Below, one piece after another: positions 40,621 through 48,440 of a stretch of DNA of 64,000 bases. Position 1 is the first letter of the stretch. Each line of letters begins with the position of its first letter. Origin of the DNA: Iocasia fonsfrigidae. Lineage in GTDB: Bacteria; Bacillota; Halanaerobiia; Halanaerobiales; DTU029. The position numbers and the translations under genes are program-made. Location: the NCBI RefSeq assembly GCF_017751145.1, contig NZ_CP046640.1:3018137-3082136 (forward strand), in the 5' to 3' direction. The notes under the pieces were generated by a model that was not told where the DNA came from, did no database searches, and saw only the letters and a program-made list of their open reading frames with translations.

Positions 40621-41312
40621 TTATAAGAAAAAAAGACATTCGCGCAATCCATAATAATACATCCAACTTTCAAATTCTATGTTGTTACCGATCTTACCGT
40701 TCTTAATTCCAACTATTTTATAAGCATAATCAATCATTTGAAGATCCCGGGTAGAAAAAATCATGGTAGTTCCCAAGTCTTCATTCATTTTGATTATTAT
40801 CTCCATAATCTGGTCAGCGGTTTTTGAATCCAGATTAATAGTCGGCTCATCTAATAATACTAATACAGGTTCTTTTACCATAACTACAGCTATTACTGCC
40901 CGTTTTTTCTGAGCACTGGATAATTCATTTGGTCTTTTGTTTTTCAAGTCATATAGTTCAACATATTGTAAAATTTCATTACTTTATTTTTTAATTTTAT
41001 ATTATTTTTTTCAACCAGTCTAGCAGCATATTCTACATTCTCATAGATAGTCATATATGGTATTAAATCAAAATCATTAGAAATATACCCAATATTATTT
41101 TCTCTAAATAAATCTAAATCTTTTTTCCCCAAGCCAGATAACTCTTTACCATCAAAAAGAAATTTACCACTGCTAGGTTTATCTAAACAACTAATTATGT
41201 TCAATAAGCTTGTCTTCCCTGAAGCAGAAGGACCAAATATAGTAGTAAATTCACCTTTTTCTACTACTAAATTTATATCCTTCAAAGCAACTACCTCAGA
41301 TTCTCCCTGACA
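40621..41312 (-). pseudogene. Truncated, frameshifted copy of the ABC ATPase at 47685-48440
   Basis: Near-identical at DNA and protein level to the intact gene at 47685-48440, from C-Q-G-E-S-E-V-V-A-L-K onward. The first 17 or so codons, including the start and N-terminal strand, are missing. One G is deleted near 40974 (AAATTTCATT here against AAATTTGCATT in the intact gene), splitting the frame after K-V-M. The C-terminus also differs slightly (N-N-I-E-F-E-S-W-M). Walker A in this copy is GPSASGKTS. A recent duplication that is now dead. Confidence 0.9.
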
Positions 41313-41351: not shown

Positions 41352-43358
41352 TTACAAATCCATGACTAATCCATAGCCATATTCAAAAAGAGGATCATAT
41401 TGCCTATCACCATAGTTAATAGGTAATTGTGATACATGCTTTGGCCAGGTTATTGGTAGTCTACCTGTAAAATTATAATCACCGAAAATTACATCTGCCA
41501 CTCCCTGCCCTTCTGAACCTGGTAGCCAGGCCTCTATAAAAGCATCCCAGTCATCAATATAATTACTTACTATTAGAGGGCGACCAGAAACCATAACCAC
41601 TACGATTGGTATCCCAGCCTGTTTGACCTTATTTAGAGTAGTTATATCGGCTTTACTCAATGACAGATCAGGGTCATCTCCTTTCCATTCAGCATATGGG
41701 TTTTCACCAATTACCACAATTGCAATGTCGGCATTGTCAAGACTAGCTACTACTTTCCCTCTACCTTTAACAGCATTTTTAATCCCCTCTTTAATAGTAG
41801 TACCCTCAGTTATATCTCCTGTACTACCCTGCCAGGAAAGAGTCCATCCACCACATTGACTGCCTATATCATCACAATTACTCCCTGCAACATAAATATT
41901 TGCACTCCTGGAAATAGGTAATACCCCATTTTTATTTTTTAACAATACTAGAGATTTCCTTACTGCTTCACGCGCAGCCTCTCTATGTTTACTAGAACCA
42001 ATTACATTAAAGTCTACCTGTTTGGGATCAACAAAAGGCTCTGCAAACTTGCCTGCTTTAAATTTAATAGTCAAGATCCTACTTACTGCATCATTGATCC
42101 TATCTCCACTTATATCACCAGATACTACAGCTTCTTTTAAAGTGCTAATAAATCTTTTCCAGTCATAAGGTTCCATAAACATATCTATACCAGCATTAAC
42201 CGATTTAACAACCTGCTCATAATAAGATGGCAATTTTATATCATGAATCGAATTCCAGTCAGAAAGTACTATACCATCAAACCCTAATTCCTCTTTTAAA
42301 ACATCAGTAATCAAATATTGCTGGGCGTGCATCTTAGTTCCCTGCCAACTGCTATGAGAAACCATAATACAACCCACTCCTGCATCTATTGCTTTCAAAT
42401 AACCCTGCATATGTATTCCTCTCAATACCTCCTCAGACACAGAAACATCACCACGATCAAGAAGACCGTCTTGGCCCGTCCCTAATTCTACTCCACCATC
42501 ACCAAGATAGTGTTTGGCCGTAGCAATAACATACTCTCCACCCATTTCGGTATCTTCACCCTGTAAGCCTTTAATATATGCTGCTGTAAGTAGTTCCTGT
42601 AATTCAGATGTCTCCCCAAAACTTTCATAAGTCCTTCCCCATCTTTCATCACGTGCTACAGCAACAGATGGGGAAAAATTGAGGTCTAAACCTGTTGCTC
42701 GTACCTCGACAGCAGTTATTTTAGCTATTTTTTTAACTAACTTGGAATCTCGGGTAGCCCCTATACCAATATTATGAGGAAATATTGTTGCATTTTTTAC
42801 ACTATTATGACCATGTACGGCATCAATACCATAGAGAATAGGTATTCTTAAACGAGAATTCATAGCTTCCTTTTGAAAATTATTATACATTTCTACCCAG
42901 TTGGAAGCTTCATTAGGATATGGCACTGAACCCCCACCACTCAGAATTGACCCCAGATAATAGTTTTTGATATCCCCAACATTAACAGCGTCTCTTTCTG
43001 CCTGTGTCATCTGACCAATTTTTTCTTCCAGAGTCATTAAATCAATTAATTTATTAACCTTTTCTTCAATAGATAAACTTTTATCATTGATAAAATCTAA
43101 TTTCACTTCAGATATATTATTATCTTTTCCCTGTACATAATTTAATGTTAATCCATTCTGAACAGCTCCAGTTAAAGACATAAAACAAAGGAAAACAACC
43201 ACTACAAATATAAATCTGTATCTCACCTTTTTCCATAATATTTTCTTAATAATTCTCTTCCCCCTTAAAAAACCTTTTTTATTGAATATCCCTTTATCTA
43301 TTCTGTTATAAAAACTATGAATAATAGGTAACATATCCTTCTCAAAACGATAAACCAC
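41352..43358 (-). CDS. GH3 family beta-glucosidase, exported
   Basis: About 668 residues. A hydrophobic segment near residues 48-65 acts as signal peptide or anchor. The GH3 N-terminal barrel starts K-V-N-K-L-I-D-L-M-T-L-E-E-K-I-G-Q-M, and L-S-D-W-N (about residue 366) holds the nucleophile Asp. The GH3_C domain follows (V-A-G-S-N-C-D-D-I-G, Q-C-G-G-W-T) and ends L-F-E-Y-G-Y-G-L. It resembles exo-1,3/1,4-beta-glucosidases that release glucose from cello- or laminari-oligosaccharides. The GTG start at 43358 lies over 20 bases from the AAGGAGG site, so the start is doubtful. There is no C-terminal fibronectin domain. Confidence 0.92.
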   Translation of the reverse strand: MVYRFEKDMLPIIHSFYNRIDKGIFNKKGFLRGKRIIKKILWKKVRYRFIFVVVVFLCFMSLTGAVQNGLTLNYVQGKDNNISEVKLDFINDKSLSIEEKVNKLIDLMTLEEKIGQMTQAERDAVNVGDIKNYYLGSILSGGGSVPYPNEASNWVEMYNNFQKEAMNSRLRIPILYGIDAVHGHNSVKNATIFPHNIGIGATRDSKLVKKIAKITAVEVRATGLDLNFSPSVAVARDERWGRTYESFGETSELQELLTAAYIKGLQGEDTEMGGEYVIATAKHYLGDGGVELGTGQDGLLDRGDVSVSEEVLRGIHMQGYLKAIDAGVGCIMVSHSSWQGTKMHAQQYLITDVLKEELGFDGIVLSDWNSIHDIKLPSYYEQVVKSVNAGIDMFMEPYDWKRFISTLKEAVVSGDISGDRINDAVSRILTIKFKAGKFAEPFVDPKQVDFNVIGSSKHREAAREAVRKSLVLLKNKNGVLPISRSANIYVAGSNCDDIGSQCGGWTLSWQGSTGDITEGTTIKEGIKNAVKGRGKVVASLDNADIAIVVIGENPYAEWKGDDPDLSLSKADITTLNKVKQAGIPIVVVMVSGRPLIVSNYIDDWDAFIEAWLPGSEGQGVADVIFGDYNFTGRLPITWPKHVSQLPINYGDRQYDPLFEYGYGLVMDL

Positions 43359-43499
43359 TTGACCACTATTCTTATTTAATTCCTCCTTTTTAAAGACTAA
43401 GGCCTTACTTTATTTTCATTTTTTCCCATATAATTATTATATTTTTCTAAAACATCAATATTTCCTGCCTTCATATATATTTTTTTTTGTGCTAAAATT

Positions 43500-43539
43500 A
43501 ATACAAAAGCCTTACCATAAATGGTAAGGCTTTTGTATT
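43500..43539. terminator. Perfect 19-bp palindromic terminator
   Basis: AATACAAAAGCCTTACCAT / ATGGTAAGGCTTTTGTATT with a 2-base centre, between the PnuC-type gene (stop 43604) and the beta-glucosidase. Perfect stem and A/T flanks suit a bidirectional terminator. Confidence 0.8.
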
Positions 43540-43603
43540 AATGTCACCCCATTAACTATAATTTTAATATGACAAAATATAAAAAAGATTTTTAATAGCA
43601 ATT

Positions 43604-44299
43604 TTAAGTTGTTGCATATTTTTTATTTAACGCAATCTTTTTCCAGTTATAATAACCGTATGAAGAATTAAGTAAATTTGTAATCTTCATAACTATAATT
43701 ATAAGAGCTGTCTTATCCCCTGACATGTATACCATTATCCACATTGCAATAGATAAAGCATTTACAACAACCCACATTAGCCATTGTTCAGAAAATCTCA
43801 TAAGGTAAAGTATACTAGCTATAACAGAAACTACTGTAGTAAGAGAGTCCATAAATGGAAGGTTTCCTCCCATTACCTTCAATATTCCTGAATATCCAAA
43901 AATTCCTGCTACAGTACCTATAAATATCATTACCATCAACTTAGGTGTCATTGTGCGAAAACACACTTGCCCATTACTCTTTGTATTCTTTTTCCATAAG
44001 TAAATAGCAATAATACTAACAGGTATACTATATATAAGATTGTACATAACTTCACCATAAAGCTTTACTCCCATACACTGATATGAATATAAAAGACTGT
44101 TAATCACTGCAAAATAAAGTCCAGTTACTTTTCCTTTGGCACCCAAAACCAAATTAAGACTTCCTGTAAGACTTAATATCAACATGAATGGGGTATCTCC
44201 ATTTAAATACCATACACTTATCATAATAGTACAGACTAATGCAAGCCATAATTCTTCATATATTGACCAATCACTAAAATAATTTTTTATTTTCTCCAT
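43604..44299 (-). CDS. pnuC: PnuC family nicotinamide riboside-type transporter
   Basis: About 231 residues, seven membrane helices. The substrate-binding signature W-x-x-W-x-x-x-N is present as W-L-M-W-V-V-V-N (about residues 173-180), as in nicotinamide riboside channels. The frame opens at 44317, but GGGAGG lies in that extension, 10 bases ahead of the ATG at 44299 (MEKIKNYFSDWS), which is taken as start. PnuC proteins carry ribosylated compounds by facilitated diffusion, trapped by phosphorylation. Here a PfkB kinase and ADP-ribosylglycohydrolase precede it in the operon. Confidence 0.9.
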   Translation of the reverse strand: MEKIKNYFSDWSIYEELWLALVCTIMISVWYLNGDTPFMLILSLTGSLNLVLGAKGKVTGLYFAVINSLLYSYQCMGVKLYGEVMYNLIYSIPVSIIAIYLWKKNTKSNGQVCFRTMTPKLMVMIFIGTVAGIFGYSGILKVMGGNLPFMDSLTTVVSVIASILYLMRFSEQWLMWVVVNALSIAMWIMVYMSGDKTALIIIVMKITNLLNSSYGYYNWKKIALNKKYATT

Positions 44300-44348
44300 T
44301 TTTAATTGTCCTCCCATTTATTAATAAAATATAATTACTGTTTCTTTG

Positions 44349-45248
44349 CTAAACTAAAAATTGTAATTTATCAAAGGATTCTTTATCAATTTTAGTCCCT
44401 TGTACTTGCACTATCTTTCCTGCTACTTTATTTGCTAATATACAAGCATAATTAAAATCATATCCCATTGAATATGCTGAAATAATAGCTCCTATGTGAC
44501 TATCGCCTGCTCCGATTGTATCTACTACCTTAACTTTTTCCCCTTTCATTTGGGTAGTTTTATTTCCATCATAAAATAAAGTCCCATCACCTCCCATTGT
44601 AATAAATACATTATTTTTATTTAATTCATATAAAGCCAAAATACTATCTTCCACACTGTCTTTACCTGTAAAATCTAAAGCTTCTTTTTTATTTAAATGT
44701 AAGATAGGTCTAGTTGAAAAAATTCTCTTCATAACACTCTCTTCTATTTCAGTTATAACTGGTCCGGGTGCAAAAAAAATATTTTTATTTTCTTGTTCTG
44801 TTAACCAGTGTGATATTGTTTTCCCACTTTTACCACAAACCTGATATCCTGCAACATATATATATTGATATTCTTCCATATTAAGATCATCAAACCACTT
44901 TTTCTTATACTTTCCTTCTATTCCCTTTACATTTATAAATGTTCTTTCTCCATCATCTTCAACTAAGCATAAAGAATAACCACTATCCATTTCTGAATCA
45001 TTCACTAATACCTTGTAGTTCTTTGCTTTTAAGTTTTTCTTTATAATATCTGCATATACTCCATCACCTACTGGCACAAATAAATCATGATCAATATCAA
45101 AATTATATAAAATATTTGCAACATTATAAGCACATCCACCTATAGATAATGTTCTTTCATTACAAAAGATATCCTCACCCTTTTTAGGTAATCTTGGTAT
45201 CTTCATAATAATATCTACTATAGCTGCACCAATAACTAAAGTTTTCAT
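44349..45248 (-). CDS. PfkB family carbohydrate/nucleoside kinase
   Basis: 299 residues. N-terminal G-A-A-I-V-D-I-I-M and G-G-C-A-Y-N-V-A-N (PfkB signature 1), ATP and anion-hole motif D-T-I-G-A-G-D-S-H-I-G-A near residue 240 with the catalytic Asp. It phosphorylates a sugar or nucleoside with ATP. The start codon overlaps the glycohydrolase stop (TAATG), so the two are coupled. E. coli YegV, a PfkB kinase next to an ADP-ribosylglycohydrolase, is the same pairing. Substrate unknown; with PnuC, a riboside is likely. Confidence 0.9.
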   Translation of the reverse strand: MKTLVIGAAIVDIIMKIPRLPKKGEDIFCNERTLSIGGCAYNVANILYNFDIDHDLFVPVGDGVYADIIKKNLKAKNYKVLVNDSEMDSGYSLCLVEDDGERTFINVKGIEGKYKKKWFDDLNMEEYQYIYVAGYQVCGKSGKTISHWLTEQENKNIFFAPGPVITEIEESVMKRIFSTRPILHLNKKEALDFTGKDSVEDSILALYELNKNNVFITMGGDGTLFYDGNKTTQMKGEKVKVVDTIGAGDSHIGAIISAYSMGYDFNYACILANKVAGKIVQVQGTKIDKESFDKLQFLV

Positions 45249-46240
45249 TAGATAAAGTTCCTTCCTTCCATCAAGATATCAATATATTCATTAAAATTTA
45301 AATTATTTTGTTTCTCTAAAACATCAATATATTCTTTCTTAATAAATTTACCACCTTTAAGTGCTCCACAAATTGCAGTTGACATAGCCCCTATGGTGTC
45401 TGTATCTCCTGCCAAATTTGCACAAAGTAAGCAAGATTTATTAGGATCTTGTGCATAATAAGCAATTGTAACTGCTGAAGGAACAGATTCACTAATATTT
45501 GTTCCTGCACCTACTATATCATATAGTTTTTCTAAGAACTTATCATCATTTCCTTTATATTTATCTGCAATTTCAATTCCTATTTTTATTCTCTCTGTTA
45601 ATGAAGGGCTATATGTTTCTACACCTAAAATCCTTGAAATAGGTTCCATATCAAATATATCTTTTAAAACAATTTGAAAATCATCATTCTCTATAGCAGA
45701 ACTAACAGCAACTGCAATCATAGCTGCTCCAGCTATAGTTATATCACTAGTATGTGTAACCTGAGAAACTCCATATACAAATTGAGCCAATCTTTCTTTA
45801 TCCTCAGCTTTAAAAAGACATCCAATTGGTGCAATTCTCATAGCTGAACCATTTGATAATGCTTGATCTGTTACTTTCTTTGCATTTAATCCATCTCTAA
45901 AATTAGCTAATGCCACTTTTGAAGTAGGTCCTAAAATATTATTTTCGAAAGCACTTTCCTTTTCTGCCCACTTTAAAAGTCTTGTTGCAATATCCTGTGG
46001 TGAAGGTTTAAAATCTGTATTTTTAATGGAATCTAATAAAACAAGAGCTTGTCCAGTATCATCAGTAAATTGCCCTCTCTTATAGTTAAATGCCACTTCA
46101 TTTTCTTTTGGTCCATCTAAAAACCCTTCAATTTTACCAAAATAAGCTTTTACTCTATTCCTTCCCCATAACTCTGCAGGCATTCCCATTGCATCTCCTA
46201 ATGCCATTCCATAAAGTACCCCTGCCATCTTATTTCTCAC
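45248..46240 (-). CDS. ADP-ribosylglycohydrolase family protein (DraG/YegU-like)
   Basis: 330 residues. The binuclear Mg site is visible: F-T-D-D-T (about residue 60) and A-G-D-T-D-T-I-G near residue 280, with ALGDAMGMPAELW at the N-terminus. Members cleave N- or O-glycosidic bonds of ADP-ribose, ADP-ribosylated proteins or small ribosides. First gene of the three-gene operon; in this setting a small nucleoside-like substrate is more likely than a protein. Two palindromic sites lie 25-65 bases upstream of its start. Confidence 0.92.
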   Translation of the reverse strand: MRNKMAGVLYGMALGDAMGMPAELWGRNRVKAYFGKIEGFLDGPKENEVAFNYKRGQFTDDTGQALVLLDSIKNTDFKPSPQDIATRLLKWAEKESAFENNILGPTSKVALANFRDGLNAKKVTDQALSNGSAMRIAPIGCLFKAEDKERLAQFVYGVSQVTHTSDITIAGAAMIAVAVSSAIENDDFQIVLKDIFDMEPISRILGVETYSPSLTERIKIGIEIADKYKGNDDKFLEKLYDIVGAGTNISESVPSAVTIAYYAQDPNKSCLLCANLAGDTDTIGAMSTAICGALKGGKFIKKEYIDVLEKQNNLNFNEYIDILMEGRNFI

Positions 46241-46264
46241 TATTTATCACCCCGTTCAATTTTT

Positions 46265-46305
46265 AATACAACTTGTTATTATGACTAAGTAATACAACAT
46301 GTATT
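46265..46305 (-). promoter_or_regulatory. Candidate GntR/UTRA operator pair
   Basis: AATACAACATGTATT at 46291-46305 is a palindrome (AATACA-ACA-TGTATT). A second, weaker copy, AATACAACTTGTTATT, is at 46265-46280, 26 bases away. Both lie between the glycohydrolase start and the divergent GntR gene, in front of the operon they would control. Confidence 0.55.
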
Positions 46306-46817
46306 GTTTTTTTAATTATACGAGTTTCCATTCCATATGTCAATATTAAATTTAAGTCCCCTAATTAAATTAAACACAAATTTCAGATATTTTTCTCTCG
46401 TTTTTGTAGTTTTTCTATACTTTTATAATTTGGGGTAAATGCAATCTGATTATATATGTTATATACAAAATGCTAAACCTTATTTAGATTTAACATTAAA
46501 AATTAATCACTTTCATTAGTTTTTCGATTCGTTTAATATTTTATCGTCCCATTGGGCACTCCTGAGTTAGTATATATCGTCCAGTATCTAGCCGAAAGGC
46601 AGGGCAAATTTTTATGTTTTTTTCTTGAACTTTACTCTTTAAAATTGTTATAATTGAACAAAGGTCTGTATTGTTAGAAAAATGTTTCACTTCACGAGTA
46701 AATTTTAATATATTTGTATAACAGATAGACAAATACTACTTTCGACTCTCATGGATTGATGTATTAAATAAAAGTATTATTGATTACCATCTAAGACACA
46801 GGAAAACGGGGGTTAAA
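46306..46817. other. Intergenic region upstream of the GntR gene
   Basis: About 510 bases, very AT-rich. It must carry the GntR promoter and upstream part of the operon promoter. A 63-codon leftward frame at 46541-46732 looks non-coding or relic-like; no family is recognised. GGGGG lies just before the GntR ATG. Confidence 0.45.
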
Positions 46818-47549
46818 ATGAAAAACAATAAGAAATTACCAAAATACGAAAAGATTAAATTAGATTTAATAAAAAAAATAAATAATTCTGAATTAAAGCC
46901 CAATCAGATAATACCTTCAGAAAATGAATTATGTGATGAATATGGTGTAAGCAGAGTTACTGTTAGAAAGTCAATTGATGAGTTAGTTCTAGAAGGGTAT
47001 CTATATAAAATGAAAGGCAAAGGTAGCTTTGTAAAAGCTAAATCTCCAGCTGAAGGAATACCAAAAATACATAGCTTTACAGAAGCTATATTACATCAAG
47101 GAAAAACTCCATCTAAATTATTAATTTCCTTAACAATATCAAAACCAGAAAATAAAATTGCTGATAAACTAAATATAAATATAAAAGATGATGTATATAT
47201 AATAAAGTGCTTATATTCTTCAAATGGAAATCCATTTTGTTTAAATAAATCTATATTACCTCAAAAACTGTTTCCTAAACTTAATTATTTTGATCTTAGT
47301 AACAACTCTTTATATGAGATATTAAAGTCTTTTTATAACTTAAACTTTACTCGTGCTACTCAAACAATTAATGCAACTACAGGTAATGATTATATCTATA
47401 ATAAATTAAATGCTGACGTTAATACACCATTATTAAAAATAAATGCTACATCATTTTGTATACATGATAGTCAAGAAATTCCTTTTGAAATATATGAATC
47501 ATTTATTTTAACTGATATTATGAGTTATTATGTTGAAAAATTTAATTAA
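46818..47549 (+). CDS. GntR family regulator with UTRA domain (HutC subfamily)
   Basis: 243 residues. Winged helix at 1-75 (IIPSENELCDEYGVSRVTVRKSIDEL, then a K-M-K-G-K-G-S-F-V wing) and an effector-binding UTRA domain at about 90-235. Divergent from the glycohydrolase/kinase/PnuC operon, which it probably represses until a substrate or sugar phosphate binds. E. coli YegW, also GntR/UTRA, holds the same place in yegTUVW. Lys- and Asn-rich, like neighbouring genes, so no sign of foreign codon use. Confidence 0.92.
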   Translation: MKNNKKLPKYEKIKLDLIKKINNSELKPNQIIPSENELCDEYGVSRVTVRKSIDELVLEGYLYKMKGKGSFVKAKSPAEGIPKIHSFTEAILHQGKTPSKLLISLTISKPENKIADKLNINIKDDVYIIKCLYSSNGNPFCLNKSILPQKLFPKLNYFDLSNNSLYEILKSFYNLNFTRATQTINATTGNDYIYNKLNADVNTPLLKINATSFCIHDSQEIPFEIYESFILTDIMSYYVEKFN

Positions 47550-47684: not shown

Positions 47685-48440
47685 TCAATATTTGTTGTTT
47701 ACAAGGAAAAAAAACCAGGTAGGTAATCCATAATAATATATCCAACTTTCTTTTTCGTCATCAGCTATCTTGCCGTTCTTAATTCCAACTATTTTATAAG
47801 CATAATCAATCATTTGAAGATCCCGGGTGGAAAAAATAATGGTAGTTCCTAAATCTTCATTTATTTTGACTATTATCTCCATAATCTGATCAGCGGTTTT
47901 TGAATCCAAATTAATAGTCGGCTCATCTAATAATACTAATACAGGTTCTTTTACCATAACTACAGCTATTACTGCCCGTTTTTTCTGAGCACTGGATAAT
48001 TCATTTGGCCTTTTGTTTTTCAAGTCATATAGTTCAACATATTGTAAAATTTGCATTACTTTATTTTTTGATTTTATATTATTTTTTTCTACCAATCTAG
48101 CAGCATATTCTATGTTCTCATAGACAGTCATATATGGTATTAAATCAAAATCACTAGAAATATACCCAATATTATCTTCCCTAAATAAGTCTAAATCTTG
48201 TTTCCCAAAGCTAGATAACTCTTTACCATCAAAAAGAAATTTGCCACTGCTAGGTTTATCTAAACAACTAATTATGTTCAGTAAGCTTGTCTTCCCTGAA
48301 CCAGCAGGACCAAATATAGTAGTAAATTTACCTTTTTCTACTACTAAATTTATATCCTTCAAAGCAACTACCTCAGATTTTCCCTGACAATAAACTTTAT
48401 TGATATTTTTTAATTCCATTAAATTCATTAACTCCCCCAC
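47685..48440 (-). CDS. Atypical LolD/MacB-like ABC ATPase, orphan
   Basis: About 247-251 residues (start at M1 48440 or the MELKNINKVY ATG at 48422). Walker A GPAGSGKTS and Walker B VLVLLDEPTINLD are normal, but the ABC signature is L-S-S-A-Q-K-K-R rather than LSGGQQQR and the H-loop reads F-S-T-R-D in place of V-T-H-D, so the switch His is Arg. Residues that position gamma-phosphate are thus altered in both spots. No permease gene adjoins it. It diverges from the sensor kinase at 48666 and has a dead near-identical copy at 40621-41312. Confidence 0.88.
   Translation of the reverse strand: MGELMNLMELKNINKVYCQGKSEVVALKDINLVVEKGKFTTIFGPAGSGKTSLLNIISCLDKPSSGKFLFDGKELSSFGKQDLDLFREDNIGYISSDFDLIPYMTVYENIEYAARLVEKNNIKSKNKVMQILQYVELYDLKNKRPNELSSAQKKRAVIAVVMVKEPVLVLLDEPTINLDSKTADQIMEIIVKINEDLGTTIIFSTRDLQMIDYAYKIVGIKNGKIADDEKESWIYYYGLPTWFFFLVNNKY

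Follow-up and report, generated by a model that had tools for sequence, protein, structure and literature searches.

A YegU–YegV gene pair with a PnuC transporter in Iocasia fonsfrigidae: a candidate route for nicotinamide riboside salvage

This report concerns a three-gene operon in a 64,000-nucleotide stretch of the Iocasia fonsfrigidae genome (contig NZ_CP046640.1; hereafter the window, in whose positions all coordinates are given), which encodes an ADP-ribosylglycohydrolase-family protein (ARH) of YegU type, a PfkB kinase of YegV type and the transporter PnuC. The operon may best be understood, with a probability that we put at roughly 0.58, as a YegUV module, mobile by horizontal transfer, for the salvage of nicotinamide riboside (NR) or a close pyridine riboside without a NadR-type kinase. 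This reading starts from what was directly observed, namely the gene content, its conservation, the exchange of transporters, the class of PnuC, the linkage to nicotinamide adenine dinucleotide (NAD) genes in Lactobacillales and the salvage gene set of the window genome. The four genes of the locus, including a divergent regulator, are as follows.

45248..46240, minus strand: YegU-type ARH (PF03747), 330 amino acids, GTG start, first gene of the unit
45246..45250, minus strand: TAATG overlap of ARH stop and PfkB start, read from the sequence (CATTA on the plus strand)
44349..45248, minus strand: YegV-type PfkB kinase (PF00294), 299 amino acids
43604..44317, minus strand: PnuC (TIGR01528), 237 amino acids, with EQWxxWxxxN and NSxYGYxNW motifs
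46818..47549, plus strand: divergent GntR/UTRA regulator (UTRA and GntR domains), 243 amino acids

The first-pass annotation of this DNA had described these four genes, the overlap, the intact PnuC motif and the divergent regulator, and this observation is real, all four genes being intact where it placed them, as borne out by the coordinates and by Pfam scores in bits (cut-offs in brackets) of 211.7 (26.2) for ADP_ribosyl_GH, 144.9 (25.8) for PfkB, 128.4 (27.3) for NMN_transporter and, in the regulator, 86.4 (23.8) for UTRA and 60.1 (27.0) for GntR. ARH, PfkB and PnuC form, in this order, one minus-strand transcription unit.

A conserved enzyme pair with exchangeable importers

An alignment of YegU was scanned against 84,980 bacterial and archaeal genomes, from which the best 80 loci were taken by YegU similarity alone, and plasmid and genome searches brought the total to 92 YegU loci, none of which was picked by its neighbours (sister ARHs of Lactobacillales, with E values of 1e-73 to 1e-83, were excluded as members of BglG/PTS clusters). 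A YegV-type PfkB gene adjoins yegU in 89 of these 92 loci, which is far beyond chance, and the conserved adjacency on which the first-pass annotation had staked its proposal is therefore found. Only two of the 89 YegUV loci are without a transporter; in the others, this slot is occupied by three mutually unrelated families, that is, NCS1 (PF02133; 43 loci), YegT-type MFS (23 loci) and PnuC (20 loci), with NCS1 and MFS together in one more locus. In a tree of YegU sequences with 93 rows, the PnuC-type loci form one clade (support 100/97), save for one member in which no transporter was found, while the MFS type is a single clade that is sister to gamma-proteobacterial NCS1 loci. Transporter labels change eight times on this tree versus 43 times in shuffles. 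Unrelated transporters in one slot and so few changes indicate that the core enzymes were kept while the importer was exchanged between families. NCS1, not the MFS protein YegT, appears to be the ancestral type, and the PnuC variant recurs across Clostridia. The earlier view of PnuC as standing in for the permease thus holds in that an NR-type PnuC sits in this slot, and has to be revised in that it is one of three alternative transporters and no one-off replacement.

Kindred arrangements were seen outside the YegUV set. Two clostridial loci (L139, L140) have a remote YegU–YegV pair behind a binding-protein-dependent ABC transporter, which makes a fourth importer type; in L140, a thiamine pyrophosphate riboswitch stands between the pair and thi genes. 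ARHs of other subfamilies are likewise paired with a PfkB kinase, beside a ureidoglycolate lyase-like gene (L008) or ABC permease-like genes (L016), so that the pairing recurs beyond YegUV. The YegU sister ARHs of Lactobacillales (L132-L138) adjoin BglG-type antiterminators and PTS enzyme II genes and possibly act on a PTS-imported glycoside. A distant ARH in five further loci, from relatives of the same order (L005-L007, L009, L010), lies between an amino-acid-kinase-like gene and folP-, folB- and folK-like genes, which suggests a role in pterin or folate synthesis (gene names in these last two groups come from sequence starts).

A PnuC of the nicotinamide riboside class

The window PnuC scores 98.1 with the NCBIfam NR-transporter equivalog TIGR01528 (cut-off 42.45), is homologous to the solved NmPnuC (4qtn, residues 12-229) and has an intact W-x-x-W-x-x-x-N motif (EQWLMWVVVN). 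EQWxxWxxxN is found in 20 of the 21 YegUV-linked PnuCs, window included, the exception being EQWVLWLAGD in L126. On the PnuC tree, in which several long branches elsewhere are unsure, the YegUV-linked PnuCs group with those next to nadR (L142-L145), two of which also adjoin pncA-like genes (nadR and pncA being named from sequence starts), and are set off by a 100/100 branch from 19 PnuC-like clostridial paralogs, which lack the motif. On these sequence grounds, we propose that the window PnuC is an NR importer.

Mhp1, presumably an NCS1 protein, is our basis for treating the yeast transporters Thi7 and Nrt1 as members of the NCS1 class. Nrt1 is a high-affinity NR transporter and a close homolog of Thi7 (PMC3510038, PMC3092764); it is called MFS in one of these papers, and a close homolog is modelled on Mhp1 in the other. 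PnuC works by facilitated diffusion and needs trapping of its substrate in the cell, normally by the NadR kinase (PMC7221760). A kinase-independent route in yeast leads from NR to nicotinamide and on to Pnc1 (PMC3092764, PMC3510038).

NAD-salvage genes

The PnuC of the operon is the only one in the window genome, in which no NadR-type NR kinase was found (no PF13521 match at E <= 0.001, with this one Pfam model and without a search for other kinase families), and which encodes one nicotinate phosphoribosyltransferase (NAPRTase, PncB), one PncA-like isochorismatase and one CinA-family protein. A NAPRTase is encoded in 17 of 19 PnuC-type genomes, and 14 of the 19 give no PF13521 match above the cut-off; Lonepinella is the instructive exception, with NadR and a second PnuC present and NAPRTase lacking.

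Seven of the 92 loci, six of them Lactobacillales, have NrtR, pncB or pncA-like genes no more than 2.4 kb from the YegUV core. A Lactiplantibacillus plantarum plasmid has the order nrtR-pncB-pncA-yegU-NCS1-yegV (L105). In an uncultured Lactobacillus (L059), pncB precedes yegU by 20 bp in the same orientation, and in Bombilactobacillus (L078) the two genes are divergent. Secundilactobacillus (L071, L076) has NrtR, with Nudix and NrtR_WHD domains, immediately upstream, and in Leuconostoc (L077) NrtR is 2 kb off. The seventh locus (L040) has, 1.25 kb from PnuC, a PncA-like gene whose identity to its counterparts in PnuC-NadR clusters is 54-63% over partial overlaps. NAD-salvage genes account for 9 of 469 genes within 3 kb versus 0 of 430 farther away (Fisher p = 0.003, ignoring relatedness). 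Since the curated nicotinamidase cut-off is not reached by the PncA-like proteins, they bear this label by similarity only.

The two enzymes

Compared with the E. coli proteins, the window ARH has 44% identity to YegU over 326 amino acids and the PfkB kinase 31% to YegV over 287. The claim that the operon has the same composition as E. coli yegUVW thus stands for the two enzymes and is weak for the regulator, which is 23% identical to YegW over 239 amino acids, with the same domain make-up and a different position, and which, judged by sequence, is not a clear YegW ortholog.

The ARH dimetal residues are retained in YegU (D16, E23, T59, D60, D61, D279, D281 and T282); they are invariant in 37 YegU sequences and align with D34, E41, T76-D77-D78, D314, D316 and T317 of ARH3. 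The AlphaFold2 model of the window YegU (pLDDT 97.3) has MJ1187 and ARH3, including the alpha-NAD+ complex 7arw, as best Foldseek matches, and ARH3 cleaves alpha-NAD+ at the nicotinamide-ribose bond (PMC9738213, PMC8319183). What differs is the adenine-holding loop of ARH3 (F143, S148, Y149), in which loss of either F143 or S148 nearly abolishes activity (PMC8319183). It is three residues shorter in the YegU alignment, and the five positions that precede NGxxMR include an aromatic residue in only one of 89 YegUs. The window ARH also falls below the cut-offs of the protein-hydrolase equivalogs DraG (71.5 versus 337.05) and Tri1 (57.8 versus 490). A kept dimetal site, a lost adenine loop and such scores are what would be expected of a small-riboside enzyme, as the first-pass annotation had surmised in arguing for a small substrate and not protein. 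We propose that the window YegU is an N-glycosidase on a pyridine riboside or its 5'-phosphate.

The window YegV has the motifs GGCAYN and DTIGAGD, which fit GG[CS]xxN and [DN]T[IVL]GAGD. The Lys of the ribokinase motif GGKGAN is replaced by Cys or Ser in YegV, and the window PfkB scores 100.3 with the ribokinase equivalog TIGR02152 (cut-off 299.65). Motif and curated score would favour, without proving, a substrate that carries a base, and the window YegV is proposed to phosphorylate either the riboside or the released ribose. The AlphaFold2 model (pLDDT 94.1) has the PfkB fold, which is uninformative on specificity since Foldseek TM-scores are similar for ketohexokinase, sulfofructose kinase and ribokinase. 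An attempt to read the reaction order from 5'-phosphate-binding residues was likewise given up, as the literature searched names no such residues.

Proposed function and alternatives

In the mechanism that we propose, PnuC (NCS1 or YegT elsewhere) would let NR in, by facilitated diffusion in the case of PnuC, and YegU, an enzyme of ARH fold with two metal ions, would together with the PfkB kinase YegV turn it into nicotinamide and ribose 5-phosphate, a deribosylation that would also trap NR in the cell. Nicotinamide would then reach NAD via PncA (nicotinamidase) and PncB, and the ribose 5-phosphate would be recovered. Whether the kinase acts before the glycosidase, as in pseudouridine catabolism, or hydrolysis precedes phosphorylation of ribose is about an even bet. 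With the NAD-salvage gene links, and no NadR-type kinase found, the case for NR is now stronger than the first-pass annotation could have made it, and the first-pass interpretation as a whole is partly supported.

Several points weigh against this assignment, in which substrate, reactions and reaction order are deduced. The main difficulty is the anomer. Characterised ARHs cleave alpha-, not beta-N-ribosides (PMC9738213), and the vitamin is beta-NR, so that ordinary beta-NR is no automatic substrate of YegU; YegU has either changed its stereospecificity or acts on an alpha-riboside, and the latter reading is the more novel. A bolder form of this, for which we see a rather slim chance, is that YegU cleaves a free pyridine riboside or ribotide, possibly alpha-NR or alpha-nicotinamide mononucleotide arising by epimerisation and not handled by beta-specific salvage enzymes, and would, with YegV, constitute a widely transferred route for vitamin B3 that does without NadR and to which E. 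coli yegTUV belongs. Further points are that (i) six of the seven loci with NAD-gene linkage are NCS1-type Lactobacillales and only L040 is PnuC-type, (ii) purine-nucleoside enzymes adjoin two loci (L055, L100), (iii) NupG-like MFS and NCS1 relatives also carry common nucleosides, (iv) the absence of NadR is that of one Pfam model, and other NR kinases may exist in the genome, and (v) ADP-glucose has been proposed as effector of YegW in E. coli (PMC10819704).

Some of these points bear on another riboside (purine, pyrimidine or modified nucleoside), which, in analogy to the pseudouridine kinase and glycosidase, would be imported, 5'-phosphorylated by YegV and cleaved by YegU to base and ribose 5-phosphate as a carbon source. 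We regard this as possible, if rather unlikely: YegT scores 654.9 with the nucleoside permease model TIGR00889 (cut-off 446.1), bases and nucleosides are carried by the NCS1 family, and GntR/UTRA control suits catabolism, but the links to DeoD (abutting the NCS1 gene in L055) and to XapA (flanking L100 with a nucleoside permease) are single cases, the window-type PnuC belongs with NadR-linked NR transporters, and it is NrtR, PncB and PncA-like genes that cluster with the module. It is quite improbable that the module handles ADP-glucose in glycogen metabolism, a role suggested for GgaR (YegW) and yegTUV of E. coli, where YegW is freed from DNA by ADP-glucose in gel shifts and a yegW mutant accumulates glycogen (PMC10819704). 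That study tried three effectors only (ADP-glucose, glucose and ADP) and assayed no enzyme, PnuC is not known to carry nucleotide sugars, YegU is without the loop that holds adenine in ARH3, and the window regulator has only the above 23% identity to YegW.

Two other explanations seem more improbable still. Salvage related to thiamine would fit the Pnu and NCS1 families, which include thiamine carriers, the close homology of Thi7 and Nrt1 (PMC3510038) and the presence of thiMD near yegTUVW in E. coli and near the remote homolog in L140; in both of these, however, the thi genes are immediately preceded by a thiamine pyrophosphate riboswitch that is separate from the yegUV-like genes, and thiamine has no ribose, quite aside from the NR motif in the linked PnuCs. 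Membership of the ARH family and the conserved dimetal site would suit an enzyme that strips ADP-ribose from protein or nucleic acid, with PfkB and PnuC recycling the ribose or nicotinamide parts, a role that the DraG and Tri1 scores, the lost adenine-binding loop and the near-invariant coupling to importers all speak against.

Putative regulation and probable horizontal transfer

Three further features frame the operon.

46315..46343, minus strand: promoter-like site TTGACA-17-TATAAT (12/12) upstream of ARH
46265..46305: a pair of imperfect palindromes resembling operators, ATAACAAGTTGTATT at 46265-46279 and AATACATGTTGTATT at 46291-46305, located between the promoter and ARH
43497..43542, minus strand: hairpin of 21 pairs (RNA fold) downstream of PnuC

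Promoter-like sites overall are no commoner in this region than in shuffles. The hairpin (-28.9 kcal/mol, z -9.3, with 0 of 200 shuffles as good) is the probable end of the transcript, and just past it a GH3 family beta-glucosidase-like gene (41352-43358) is apparently a separate unit. The GntR protein probably represses from the two palindromes at the promoter. Its identity to the GntR proteins that accompany this operon in L024-L026 is 59-60%, and upstream of yegU in these loci there is a site, CAATACAAGTTGTAATG, that is near-identical to the window palindromes. Five PnuC-type loci (L032, L038, L039, L042, L050), mostly with divergent GntR, share a conserved palindrome upstream of yegU, ACTTATTATAATAAGT, which is perfect or nearly so and is likely a second type of operator. 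Riboswitch control was considered and rejected: neither an NAD+-II nor another relevant riboswitch was found at the window, only low-scoring spurious matches on the hairpin, and no relevant RNA family was found in the eight PnuC-type loci examined.

The operon was likely acquired by horizontal transfer. The closest homologs of its YegU, YegV and PnuC are in Clostridium saudiense (78, 61 and 73% identity), while none of 60 relatives of the window's own genome has a YegU above 39% identity. G+C is 30.5% in the operon and 23.6% in the GntR gene versus 34.9% in the window. Elsewhere on the YegU tree, Lonepinella (Pasteurellaceae) falls inside the clostridial clade. Two copies of an ABC-transporter ATPase gene (40621-41285, split into two frames, and 47685-48440), 93-94% identical and offset by 7077 bases, enclose the yegUV-pnuC operon together with gntR and the GH3 gene, and the island between them may have arrived by way of a duplication or an insertion.

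Implications

The gene set itself was already known, without an assigned function, and the window holds its PnuC variant. No published functional assignment of yegTUV or YegUV was found in the open-licence literature, although subscription journals may hold one, and nothing relevant was found in open-licence papers that ties NR to an ADP-ribosylglycohydrolase. There is no agreed function for yegTUV, yet it is carried by E. coli and by many gut and food bacteria. The fixed ARH-PfkB pair, the three importers and the links to NrtR, PncB and PncA-like genes make its function reducible to one direct assay. If our proposal is true, it would (i) add a kinase-independent bacterial route for a vitamin B3 riboside, (ii) give ADP-ribosylglycohydrolases a small-molecule vitamin role and (iii) bear on dietary NR use by gut and lactic acid bacteria.

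Comparison with known systems

A close parallel is E. coli yegTUVW (the ggaR regulon), with which the window shares orthologous YegU and YegV in adjacent, co-directional genes and a GntR/UTRA regulator nearby, and from which it differs by PnuC in place of YegT, the order ARH-PfkB-PnuC and a regulator that is divergent and upstream. The pseudouridine system PsuK/PsuG also acts on a riboside by means of a PfkB kinase, a glycosidase and a permease; its glycosidase has another fold, and the base that we propose here is nicotinamide. ARH3 and ARH1, hydrolases of alpha-ADP-ribosyl-acceptor bonds, share with YegU the fold and the dimetal active-site residues but not its want of an adenine-holding loop. 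With PnuC-NadR salvage of NR, the window has in common the transporter class (TIGR01528, grouping with L142-L145) and facilitated diffusion in need of a trap, whereas ARH and PfkB stand where the NadR-type kinase, not found in the window genome, would be. Finally, Nrk-independent NR salvage in yeast (Nrt1, Urh1/Pnp1, Pnc1) resembles the proposed route both in the NCS1-like importer of many YegUV loci and in leading from NR to nicotinamide and on to nicotinamidase and NAPRTase (PMC3092764, PMC3510038), but the yeast enzymes are a nucleoside hydrolase and a phosphorylase, whereas the YegU glycosidase would be ARH-fold, metal-dependent and coupled to a PfkB kinase.

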